Positions 1,085 to 9,704 of a DNA stretch of 34,384 bases are shown here, one piece after another. The stretch lies in assembly GCA_028684955.1 (NCBI GenBank), contig JAQUEY010000010.1, forward strand, positions 1-34,384. Reading direction: 5' to 3'. The stretch's first letter is position 1. Every line of letters starts with the position of its first letter. Origin of the DNA: Eubacteriales bacterium (GTDB taxonomy: Bacteria; Bacillota; Clostridia; Saccharofermentanales; UBA5734). A program made the translations under genes and the position numbers. The notes below the pieces were generated by a model. That model worked only from the letters and a program-made list of their open reading frames with translations, had not been told where the DNA came from and did not search any database.

Positions 1085-1113
1085 ATTTTAGAGGGTTTGC
1101 ATCCTCCAGTCAA
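1085..1113 (-). promoter_or_regulatory. Sigma-A-like promoter for fba
   Basis: On the minus strand, TTGACT (-35, 1113-1108) and TAAAAT (-10, 1090-1085) are separated by exactly 17 bases. The -35 box contains the TGA stop codon of the upstream SDR gene. The predicted leader is about 80 nt and contains the palindrome CAAGCGGCGCTTG (1059-1071), which could form a small hairpin early in the transcript. Confidence 0.7.
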
Positions 1114-1634
1114 CGATAAATCATTTTGCGAGTCATGCCGCCATCGATCACCAGGGTTTGGCCGGTGATGAAGCCTGCATCCGGGCTGGCCAGGAAAAAG
1201 CAGGCGGCGGCGATATCAGCTGGGCGGCCGATCCGGCCGGCTGGATGCTGATGATGTTCTTCCTCCGGCCAAATTGCAGGATCGGGCCTTCCCTTCTGCC
1301 ATTCAGCAGAATGCGCGTTTGCGATCGCAGCATTGTGGACCAGGACAGCCAGGCCAGATGGAGCCAGGTCCTTGGTTTGCCGGGCCAGACGTTCAATCTG
1401 CGCCTGGTCAGACAGATCAGCCTGAAGGAAGTGGGCAGAAAGGCCCTGTTCGGCAAGGATCGTCTGAGTCTCCTCCCCTGTTTCTGAGTCCCGGTCGGTA
1501 TAAATCACGCGAGCCCCAGCCTGGGCAAAACTCAAGACCAGGCAACGGCCAATGCCGGCAGCGCCACCAGTGATGAGGACCGAGCGGCCGGAAAAATCAG
1601 GCCGGTAGGCAGGGGTCTGCAGAGTTCCGTTCAC
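1110..1634 (-). pseudogene. SDR-family oxidoreductase with internal deletion of the catalytic core
   Basis: The open frame encodes 174 residues against about 240-250 for classical short-chain dehydrogenases. The N-terminal Rossmann part is intact: ITGGAAGIG at residues 21-29, a D(R)D cofactor-specificity region around 47-49, QADLSD at 71-76 and VHNAA at 99-103. The C-terminal part is also family-like: GRIGRPADIAAA, then FLASPDAGFITGQTLVIDGG. Between them, near residues 106-110, the sequence jumps from the NNAG-equivalent straight to the late EWQKG segment. About 65-75 residues are missing, including the whole Asn-Ser-Tyr-Lys catalytic set. The reading frame is kept, so this is an in-frame deletion. 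Translation starts at a GTG whose GTGA overlaps the valS stop by 4 bases, so it is coupled to valS. It cannot be an active dehydrogenase by the known mechanism. I call it a pseudogene, though a residual dinucleotide-binding protein is possible. Confidence 0.8.
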
Positions 1635-6602: not shown

Positions 6603-8498
6603 CTAATCCCCTAAGCTGTCGAAAATAATCTGTCCCACACCTGATCCGGCTGCCTGCAAAACAAAAGCCGCGATCGATCCCGGCGAGGTGGCAGCATCTG
6701 TGCTGCGGCAGACTCGCAAGACACGTCCGGCGTCCACCAGCTGATGATAAGGCGATTCCAGGCGAATGCGGTCCTCATTTTCCAGAATCGGCCGGCACGG
6801 CAGGCTGAATCCAGGCGTATATGCCGGATGGCTGGTCACACCAGCAATCTGGCCATATTGCCTGCGGTCTGATTCAGCAAAAGATCGGGCTACGAGTGGA
6901 TCAGAATCGGCCAGCAACAGGAATAAGATGCCGGTGCGGTCCGAGGCAGCTGTACAGGTTTGCTGCATCATCCGCACAATTTCCAGGCCGAGGTCTTTGG
7001 CTTCGCGGCTCTGGCCATGGTGGCGGCCAACCAGCGAAACCAGGGTTTCAGCCAGCCCCGTCAAACCAATGGCCAGGCTGCCCTTGCCCAGCTGACTGGC
7101 AAGTGTCGTGGCATCAGCCTGGGCAGGGTCTGCTGCAGGTAAAGGCTGTCCATGCAAGAAGGGAAAATTACCACAGCCTAGAGACTGCAACGTTTTGTAG
7201 CGCTCAAGCAGGGAGTCGATGGCCAGGCTGAGCAGATGCTCCAGGCGCTGGTAGAACAAATTGAGATCATTGCGGGCCAGGATGGCACAGCGGGGCAAAT
7301 TGATCGTGACCGTAGCCAAGTTGGTCGTGGGTGGATCTGCAAAGGCGAATTCCGGCTGTCCAGTCTGGGCACAGCACTGGCAGGCCAGCAAGAACAGGTC
7401 GTGATTGGGGTCTCCCGGCTGCAAATTGACCCCGGCAGCGAGGCGGTAAATCAGGCGTGGCTGCTTTCGCAGCGGCGAATTCGCCGGATTCTCCCCTGCA
7501 ACTTTTCCAGCTGCCTCGAGTAATTTTCCAGTCACCAGCCGGCTTTCGGGATCTGTTTCCAATCCAAACAGGACACAGGTCTGGCTTTCTCCAGACTGGG
7601 ACTGGAAGCACTGGGTCTTGAACTGGTTGAGCACAGCATCCATGGCCTGGTACGTTGCCAGGGCGGTGTCTTCATCGGCGAGGGCGCCGGCCTGCTCTGG
7701 TGGGAGCCAATTACCAAATCTGGTTCCGAGACGCTGCCTTGTGGCCCGGACACCATCCGCCATGGCCCGGTCAAAATGCAGCAGATACACACTGCCGCTG
7801 ATTTCCTGCCGGATGCTGGCGGTAGCAACACCGGCCAGGGCAGCGTAGCTCCTGATATCGGAAGGCTGGCGGATGCTGGCCTGGCCACTCCGGAACCCCC
7901 CAGAAAAAAGAGGCCGCAGATCGATGGGCTGATCGGCATATGTCAGCGCATATGATTCAAGCTGATGGATGAAAAGGTCCAGATTCTGATGGGCCTGGCT
8001 GACAGCTGGCGACAAGACATAGAGCAAATTGTAGGAACAGGCACCCGTCCGGCCATATTTGAGCAGTTGGTCACTGGCAGTTTGCGGGATCTGGTTCATC
8101 ATGGGCGACTTGCCGGCTGCAGACGTTCCCTGCGCTGGGGTGGCCAGTGGGTTCATGGCATGGAAAGCCTGCATCAGGTGGGTCTTCATCTCGCGCACGT
8201 GCGTTCTCTGGGAGCGATACAGGATGTAGCGCTTGGCAGTTTCCGGGAAACCGGTTTCCATCAGGACCTGCTCAACCGTATCCTGGATCCGTTCGATCGT
8301 CGGACAGCGTTGTCCCATCTGGTCAATCCGCTCAGCCACCAGAGTGGCCAGTTCCAGGCTGGTCTGGCTCCGGGGCTGGGCGGGATCTTTGATGTTGGTT
8401 TCCGTGGAGGCATCGAGCGCCTTGTGGATGGCACTGGCAATTTTCTCGATGTTGAAAACGACTTCACGTCCATCCCGTTTGATGACTCTGGTGATCAT
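6603..8498 (-). CDS. ATP-cone/NrdD-like protein, truncated and without radical chemistry residues
   Basis: A 631-residue relative of class III (anaerobic) ribonucleotide reductase. The N-terminal ATP-cone is intact (VIKRDGREVVFNIEKIASAI, then PTIERIQDTVEQVL and YILYRSQR). The NrdD core is recognisable: IDLRPLFSGGF, SDIRSYAALAG, GVNLQPGDPNHDLFLLAC, TINLPR, NFPFLHGQ, GSLAIGLTGLAE, RRQYGQIAGVT, and SPYHQLVDAG at about 580-590. Radical features are missing. The TTCCQ-type segment reads LTYADQ. The loop that normally carries the thiyl cysteine before the GRGN/TINLPR motif is shortened to FADPPTTNLATVTINLPR. The protein ends at GVGQIIFDSLGD, just where the zinc cysteines and the glycyl-radical RITGY segment should follow. 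I start at the ATG at 8498 (MITRVIKRDGR) because AAGGAG lies upstream. It has its own promoter. It cannot be a working reductase; a nucleotide-binding role via the ATP-cone is speculation. Confidence 0.85.
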   Translation of the reverse strand: MITRVIKRDGREVVFNIEKIASAIHKALDASTETNIKDPAQPRSQTSLELATLVAERIDQMGQRCPTIERIQDTVEQVLMETGFPETAKRYILYRSQRTHVREMKTHLMQAFHAMNPLATPAQGTSAAGKSPMMNQIPQTASDQLLKYGRTGACSYNLLYVLSPAVSQAHQNLDLFIHQLESYALTYADQPIDLRPLFSGGFRSGQASIRQPSDIRSYAALAGVATASIRQEISGSVYLLHFDRAMADGVRATRQRLGTRFGNWLPPEQAGALADEDTALATYQAMDAVLNQFKTQCFQSQSGESQTCVLFGLETDPESRLVTGKLLEAAGKVAGENPANSPLRKQPRLIYRLAAGVNLQPGDPNHDLFLLACQCCAQTGQPEFAFADPPTTNLATVTINLPRCAILARNDLNLFYQRLEHLLSLAIDSLLERYKTLQSLGCGNFPFLHGQPLPAADPAQADATTLASQLGKGSLAIGLTGLAETLVSLVGRHHGQSREAKDLGLEIVRMMQQTCTAASDRTGILFLLLADSDPLVARSFAESDRRQYGQIAGVTSHPAYTPGFSLPCRPILENEDRIRLESPYHQLVDAGRVLRVCRSTDAATSPGSIAAFVLQAAGSGVGQIIFDSLGD

Positions 8499-8559
8499 GG
8501 CGCTACTCCTTGCCGCTGATTTTCCATTGTCCAAAAAAGTTCATGACCGGTCTTCTTTC

Positions 8560-8588
8560 AATGTAGCGGTCTTTGCCAGGAGCGTCAA
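8560..8588 (-). promoter_or_regulatory. Promoter of the NrdD-like/acetylesterase-like pair
   Basis: On the minus strand TTGACG (-35, 8588-8583) and TACATT (-10, 8565-8560) have a 17-base spacer. The predicted start is near 8553, giving a leader of roughly 55 nt before the ATG at 8498. This is the only good promoter seen ahead of the pair. Confidence 0.65.
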
Positions 8589-8617
8589 CTTGAATCACCC
8601 TGGATGCATGACAGGAC

Positions 8618-8636: not shown

Positions 8637-9704
8637 TCAGGGCACCTGGCGTACGAGTTCAAACAAGCCGAGTTTCGTCAGGCCGCCAACCGTGATCTTG
8701 CCCCGGTCTTTTCTCAGTTCAGAGGTGAAAAAACGGACCAGATCTGCCCGGTCTTCAGCATGGTGCAGGCGGATAAAGTCGACCATGACGATACCTGCCT
8801 GATTTCTCAGGCGCAGCTGGCGGGCAATTTCGCTGGCGGCCAGGTGGTTGGTCATGACACGCAGAGCTTCCGGGTCTTTGGCCTGAGCCTTTGCCGAATT
8901 GACATCGATCACCAGCAGGGCCTCGGTCTGGTCAAAGACGAGGCTGGCGCCGTTTTTCAGATGCACGTGATGGTGATGGACCTCCTGGGGTAGATTGCCC
9001 AGGCGAAACGCCGCTTGCAGGTCGAAGGTCTCCGGGCGTATGGACAGGACCGGGCGCAGAGCTGGCCATCGTTCCCGGACCAGAGTATCCAGCTCGTTGA
9101 ACAAGTCGATATCGTTGCATTGGATGGTGCGCAGGTCTGGCCTGGCCCAGTCTGCCAGGGCAGCGGCACAGACCGTGCGTGGCCGCCAGAGCAGGCGCGG
9201 GACAGGTCCGCTGCCGGATGCCCGGGCCAGAACGGCAAGATGGGCCGATTGGAGCAAGGTGGTCTCACCTGCCAGCAACGATTCCTGTTCCAAAACTGGA
9301 ACCAGTCCCAGTTTGCTACGCCGGATGATCCGCTCCTGCTCAGGCTCGTAAACTGCAAACAGGCCAGCATATTGCAGCCGGGTCGTCAACAGATGGCCCT
9401 TGCTGGCAGTCCCGTCTGGACGATGGTTTGGAATCAGGCGCCGGATCTGGACCAGGATCGCCTGGCCCGGTTTGCAGCCAGGCTCGACCTCCCGGTGTGG
9501 CAGAAGGGCGTTTTCTTCTTGTCCGATGTCGATGAAGGCGCCCAACGCCCGGTCAATGGACTCGATCCGGCCCAGGAGAATATCCTGGCGCTGGGCTGCA
9601 AGGTCTGGCTGGGGCCGGATCCATTCGACCGGCTGGCCATCTTCGACCAGGACTGACTGAGGCCAGCCGGCAGGATCACGATAGACCACAATATCCTGCA
9701 CCAT
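8637..9704 (-). CDS. rng: Ribonuclease E/G family protein, short C-terminus
   Basis: An endoribonuclease of the RNase E/G family, acting on single-stranded 5' rRNA ends and mRNA. The 355 residues contain the S1-like N-terminal region (ILLGRIESIDRALGAFIDIG, residues 43-62), a KGHLLTTRLQYAG segment, and the catalytic DNase-I-like region with both metal-binding aspartates: the D of LLVIDVNSAK and the first D of IVMVDFIRL, equivalent to E. coli D303 and D346. Full-length family members continue past GLVEMTRQR into a CPxC zinc-link and a small domain of about 100 residues. This protein stops at LGLFELVRQVP, so the zinc-link used for tetramerisation is absent. I see no continuation in other frames. 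It is last in the pgi, radical SAM, DUF2344, rng run, and pairing with the last two is common in Clostridia. The start at 9704 has only a poor ribosome site and lies 6 bases after the DUF2344 stop. Confidence 0.88.
   Translation of the reverse strand: MVQDIVVYRDPAGWPQSVLVEDGQPVEWIRPQPDLAAQRQDILLGRIESIDRALGAFIDIGQEENALLPHREVEPGCKPGQAILVQIRRLIPNHRPDGTASKGHLLTTRLQYAGLFAVYEPEQERIIRRSKLGLVPVLEQESLLAGETTLLQSAHLAVLARASGSGPVPRLLWRPRTVCAAALADWARPDLRTIQCNDIDLFNELDTLVRERWPALRPVLSIRPETFDLQAAFRLGNLPQEVHHHHVHLKNGASLVFDQTEALLVIDVNSAKAQAKDPEALRVMTNHLAASEIARQLRLRNQAGIVMVDFIRLHHAEDRADLVRFFTSELRKDRGKITVGGLTKLGLFELVRQVP

Follow-up and report, generated by a model that had tools for sequence, protein, structure and literature searches.

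The window (the whole 34,384-nucleotide stretch of DNA analysed here) encodes a 631-residue descendant of NrdD, the class III ribonucleotide reductase (RNR). Judged from its sequence, this protein (pseudo-NrdD) has lost catalysis: both catalytic cysteines, the substrate loops, and the glycyl-radical domain are gone. Selection keeps the protein after this loss, and above all its ATP-cone. We consider it probable that pseudo-NrdD is a kept pseudoenzyme that now serves as an ATP/dATP-responsive regulator or as a scaffold for a partner protein; the regulatory or scaffolding role, the nucleotide binding, the oligomer switching, and any partner are what we infer for it.

Lost catalytic parts and the retained ATP-cone

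The gene starts with ATG, runs for 631 codons on the minus strand (the initial annotation had named no strand), and ends in a stop codon at 6603-6605, one base before the ATG of the next gene, P2, at 6601, which is the spacing described at first reading. A class III RNR core with an intact ATP-cone had also been proposed, and Pfam bears both out (NRDD, 3.7e-61; ATP-cone, 2.1e-21, beginning at residue 4). The closest solved relatives are anaerobic ribonucleotide reductases (PDB sequence matches 8p23, 9d3x, and 1h78).

Table 1. Positions of pseudo-nrdD, its expression signals, its altered or retained motifs, and the adjoining gene P2 in the window
Feature	Position	Strand	Remark
pseudo-nrdD	8498..6603	minus	NrdD-derived, 631 aa, without catalytic machinery
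Shine-Dalgarno AGGAG	8506-8510	minus	7 bases upstream of the pseudo-nrdD ATG; identical in four species
Sigma-70-type promoter-like site, TTGACG-N17-TACATT	8588-8560	minus	Upstream of pseudo-nrdD
ATP-cone, residues 1-99	8202..8498	minus	All ten nucleotide-contact residues retained
Linker, residues 100-142	8073..8201	minus	NxN active-site flap lost; residues 121-140 hypervariable
Former HxHD triphosphate motif	7962..7973	minus	Now F-I-H-Q; F-x-H-x in the other four species
LTYADQ for LTxTCCQ	7929..7946	minus	betaA catalytic cysteine replaced
Finger-loop deletion junction	7322..7323	minus	Between T392 and N393; 38 residues gone, including the thiyl-radical cysteine
Former TPAE substrate-phosphate loop	6897..6911	minus	Now ADSDP
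P2, degenerate sialate O-acetylesterase-like, 604 aa	4787..6601	minus	Directly downstream of pseudo-nrdD

Motif names and roles follow published work on NrdD (PMC11226230, PMC12662201, PMC9669993), and motifs were compared between the five pseudo-NrdDs described below and 78 other NrdDs, taken from bacteria and from viral contigs. At the betaA position all 78 others have cysteine and all five pseudo-NrdDs aspartate; TCCQID has become (Y/F)(A/S)DxP in the genus, and the LTYADQ picked out in the initial annotation is read here within ALTYADQPID, against LTxTCCQID in real NrdDs. The thiyl cysteine of the finger loop, kept by 78/78 other NrdDs, falls in a gap in 5/5 pseudo-NrdDs, and the loop before TINLPR, rightly described as shortened, has 38 residues fewer than in full-length relatives. 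The C-terminal zinc/glycyl-radical domain is absent from all five in the alignment, in agreement with the original remark that the protein ends ahead of this region, and the TINLPR strand and the barrel are still present. No similarly dead form was found among viral NrdDs: every one in the alignment has the two cysteines. The idea that a small glycyl-radical protein serves as a rescuing spare part was rejected, since pseudo-NrdD lacks the two catalytic cysteines as well.

The probability that an assembly or binning artefact merely cut short a normal nrdD is negligible. The assemblies are draft and of metagenome type, and the canonical nrdD of the window's own genome (G000) is itself cut by contig ends, but the same internal lesions occur in five separate assemblies, each time well away from the contig ends, the next gene begins 1 to 2 bases past the stop in four genomes, and no radical-domain remnant was seen in the gap between pseudo-nrdD and P2 in G004.

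In StNrdD, the residues through which the cone contacts two ATP/dATP molecules include K19, R20, K31, I32, K38, Q79, Y98, Y101, R105, and R109 (PMC12662201). Their equivalents in pseudo-NrdD, aligned to StNrdD through the PDB sequence match, are K7, R8, K19, I20, K26, Q72, Y91, Y94, R98, and R102, and these are invariant (10/10) across the five species; two core residues that touch the cone nucleotide in StNrdD have changed (N167 to Q168 and K171 to N172). The AlphaFold2 model of pseudo-NrdD (pLDDT 84, pTM 0.78; pLDDT under 50 at linker positions 121-138) compares with PcNrdD 8p2s at Z 39.6 and 2.2 A over 476 residues and has a complete NrdD barrel, a fold that is partly expected because real NrdDs are in the model's alignment. 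A zinc-ribbon DNA-binding domain of the NrdR type is not among the Pfam domains of the protein, which are the ATP-cone and NRDD only. ATP/dATP sensing through the cone is likely: the sensing role ventured in the initial annotation is well supported at the sequence level by the ten invariant contact residues, while binding itself is a prediction.

Selection, distribution, and origin

Selection was estimated as dN/dS by the Nei-Gojobori method with bootstrap intervals, using two independent species pairs at a dS of about 0.5. For pseudo-nrdD as a whole, dN/dS is 0.179 (0.145-0.215), far below 1, which settles a check that had been proposed for its relatives. By region it is 0.31 in the linker, 0.15-0.21 for the barrel, 0.45 over the final 31 residues, and 0.030 (0.005-0.069) in the cone, the last value being less exact because few synonymous differences at the 5' end bring dS down there. 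This low dS is strongest over the first 25 codons, and the same pattern is seen in valS, so it is in part ordinary 5' constraint. Canonical nrdD, compared within one of these species pairs (G001 and G003), has a dN/dS of 0.041 overall, with 0.068 in the cone and 0.038 in the barrel and radical domain. The regional order of constraint is thus reversed: the cone is tightest in pseudo-nrdD, whereas the barrel and radical domain are tightest in canonical nrdD.

No stop or frameshift interrupts pseudo-nrdD in any of the five genomes and, with dN/dS far below 1, simple decay is rejected. The earlier view of a kept pseudoenzyme as opposed to random decay stands, given the common lesions, the low dN/dS, and the conserved promoter and synteny. 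A redundant nrdD that is slowly decaying and no longer does anything would fit with NrdJ filling the NrdD role, as a second nrdD also does in some genomes, but we judge such decay very improbable: at a dS of about 0.5, dN/dS is 0.18 with an upper bound of 0.215, and 0.03 in the cone, the frame is intact in five genomes, one of them at 52% identity, and the promoter is conserved.

Pseudo-NrdD occurs in all five genomes of the genus (G000 to G004), at the same locus and with the same lesions. Its identity to the four other genus members is 86, 81, 79, and 52%, and their frames measure 645 to 656 codons from stop to stop; homologues with the same C-terminal truncation, which it had been suggested to look for, are therefore found in four further genomes. 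At the threshold used, the truncated form appears in 5 of 188 genomes of the order, all five being draft assemblies of one genus. The gene order pgi, TIGR03960, TIGR03936, rng, pseudo-nrdD, P2, valS is kept within the genus. Because the lesions and the place are common to five species, they reflect more than chance.

The corresponding locus in another genus of the family (G013) holds an NrdD with all catalytic motifs, immediately upstream of P2 and valS. In a quick tree without bootstrap, this active syntenic NrdD groups as sister to the dead clade (support, 98). The branch leading to the dead clade is long in the same tree (2.14), which indicates a burst of change and, after it, constraint. 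Elsewhere in the family P2 follows rng or TIGR03936 without an intervening NrdD, and the canonical nrdD genes of G001 and G003 fall in a different clade of the tree from pseudo-nrdD. The sequence relationships indicate that pseudo-NrdD descends from an active enzyme. An active nrdD would have stood between rng and the SASA-family gene in the ancestor shared with the sister genus, and would then have lost both cysteines, the substrate-binding loops, and the glycyl-radical domain to become a pseudoenzyme.

Promoter and NrdR boxes

The gene's own promoter and good ribosome site, both reported in the initial annotation, are present (TTGACG-N17-TACATT and AGGAG). By chance alone, the scanned region would be expected to contain one such promoter-like site; TTGACG, TACATT, and their 17-base spacing are identical in four species, in which the flanking intergenic DNA varies and the leader is conserved alongside the promoter. 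Across 8499-8590 (minus strand), the promoter, leader, and first codons differ hardly at all between four species, and fourfold-site divergence is 0.10 in the first 25 codons versus about 0.37 along the gene. These two observations suggest that the leader is possibly under regulatory constraint.

NrdR boxes have been described as 16-base boxes with a spacer of 15-16 bases (PMC12051234), and the spacing found here is close to this. Box pairs 30-32 bases apart lie upstream of nrdJ (three genomes tested) and of canonical nrdD (three genomes), as well as upstream of the active syntenic nrdD of G013 and of the full-length nrdD of a further genome (G086); when pair scores were tested against 1000 shuffles, 0/1000 reached the score in any active nrdD or nrdJ region tested. 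Upstream of the five dead copies no NrdR boxes were found, the best pair falling within the shuffle range in 5/5. Since the boxes are missing from all five and present at every active nrdD or nrdJ tested, pseudo-nrdD has, by these sequence criteria, left the NrdR regulon, and it stands under its own conserved promoter.

Candidate partners and related systems

What remains of the enzyme would be a folded NrdD barrel joined to an intact two-nucleotide ATP-cone. The cone most likely binds ATP or dATP, and the nucleotide probably changes the oligomeric state of pseudo-NrdD as it does in real NrdDs, with cone-cone contacts in the presence of dATP and release with ATP. Such a change would regulate or scaffold a partner protein, for which NrdJ, P2, and, where present, canonical NrdD are candidates.

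Canonical nrdD is found in G000 (cut by contig ends), in G001, and in G003; in the last two, nrdG lies beside it. It was not detected in G002 or G004, both 96% complete, and the best NrdG matches in these two genomes reach about half the family cut-off; similar matches occur in all five genomes, and those of G002 and G004 probably represent another activase. The full-length nrdD-nrdG whose presence elsewhere had been proposed as a check is thus found in G001 and G003, whereas nrdD is contig-broken in G000 and neither gene is found in G002 or G004. If these absences are real, modulation of NrdD is not a general role. The NrdD-modulating role offered in the initial annotation is weakened, with canonical nrdD in three of the five genomes and no NrdR boxes at the pseudo gene. 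Pseudo-NrdD could still act as a regulatory subunit of canonical NrdD, assembling with it into hetero-oligomers by way of the dimer face of the barrel or of contacts between cones, and tuning its dATP response. The kept fold and ATP-cone favour such a subunit, as do the canonical nrdD of G000, G001, and G003 and the nrdG beside it in G001 and G003, but the pseudo gene is intact in G002 and G004, where nrdD and a full NrdG match were not found, and canonical nrdD comes from another clade; we regard this arrangement as rather improbable.

Two further NrdD-like sequences were noted. An NRDD match on contig C14 of G003 was set aside as not NrdD; its features point to a YjjI-type glycyl radical protein that has an activase of its own. 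On contig C153 of G000, a partial NrdD-like frame (L007/L046, 56-910, plus strand) breaks after HIHDLEYFGTRPFC into intein-start-like sequence and stops at residue 284.

Every one of the five genomes encodes a class II NrdJ, and no other catalytically intact RNR was found in all of them. A search of the five genomes for ATP-cones returned NrdR, pseudo-NrdD, and canonical NrdD only, never NrdJ, and a Pfam cone search in two NrdJs found none. An intact NrdJ in every genome, without an ATP-cone of its own, would suit a cone acting in trans, with the pseudoenzyme binding dATP and inhibiting NrdJ or binding ATP and stimulating it. We think this quite unlikely: ATP-cones are missing from most class II RNRs (PMC9669993), class II and class III RNRs dimerise differently and the docking surface would therefore be new, no partner of this kind is known, and nrdJ has NrdR boxes whereas the pseudo gene has none.

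P2 matches PDB 7kmm at 4e-19 and lies below the cut-off of Pfam SASA (PF03629), whereas its family relatives lie above it. Its catalytic motifs GQSNM, WYQGESD, and HP are lost in the genus, and the loss is partial in G013 and G006. As catalytic motifs are gone from both pseudo-NrdD and P2, the operon holds two former enzymes. A joint function, in which these two make up a single complex that serves some purpose other than nucleotide reduction, would agree with the position of P2 directly after pseudo-nrdD in every one of the five genomes (1-2 bases apart in four), with the lack of catalytic motifs in both proteins throughout the genus, with similar constraint on both (dN/dS, 0.12-0.19), and with the place of pseudo-nrdD outside the NrdR regulon. 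P2-like genes, however, occur in the family without an adjoining NrdD and in G013 beside an active one, and the gap widens to about 126 bases in G004, so that we take a joint function to be unlikely. Tentatively, the dead NrdD might be a free-standing dATP/ATP sensor that regulates NrdJ or another process in trans, in a two-ex-enzyme module with P2.

Inactive RNRs with second jobs are already known from herpesviruses, and the betaherpesvirus R1 homologues descend from class I RNR. Extracts of PMC5469499 and PMC11772975 describe two of them, UL45 and M45, as likewise inactive RNR large chains retained for another role; these act in host signalling, whereas pseudo-NrdD is bacterial, descends from class III, and still has its nucleotide-sensing cone intact. 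NrdR, as portrayed in an extract of PMC9110341, also uses an ATP-cone to sense nucleotides without catalysis, through oligomer changes, but it has a zinc-ribbon DNA-binding domain and no barrel, whereas pseudo-NrdD has a full barrel and no DNA-binding domain. In LbNrdB, as cited in PMC11226230, the ATP-cone has moved to the radical subunit NrdB, so a cone can regulate RNR from another polypeptide; there the carrier is an active subunit, in contrast to the dead catalytic chain of pseudo-NrdD. Class III NrdDs themselves (PcNrdD 8p23/8p2s, StNrdD 9d3x, T4 1h78) resemble pseudo-NrdD in descent, fold, cone contacts, TINLPR strand, and barrel, and differ from it in having both cysteines, the glycyl-radical/zinc domain, NxN, HxHD, TPAE, and NrdR boxes. 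Most NrdDs have such an N-terminal ATP-cone, and NrdR boxes are a usual though not a strictly defining feature of their genes. A search of the literature by title and abstract, with most subscription journals outside its scope, returned no report of a pseudoenzyme RNR in bacteria or in class III. In the kept pseudoenzyme that we favour, a sensory domain held tighter than the rest after the loss of chemistry would mean that sensing has been separated from catalysis in nature, and it would provide a system for asking what an ATP-cone on an NrdD body does alone and whether RNR can be controlled in trans.

Two other genes of the window are short. An RNase E/G-family protein at 8637-9704 (minus strand) has only 355 aa, reaches 152 bits where the cut-off of TIGR00757 is 326, and stops ahead of the usual C-terminal small domain, and this short form is conserved in the genus. 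A short-chain dehydrogenase at 1110-1634 (minus strand) has 174 aa versus about 265 aa in three congeners, whose some 90 extra mid-protein residues point to an in-frame internal deletion or an assembly collapse in the window.
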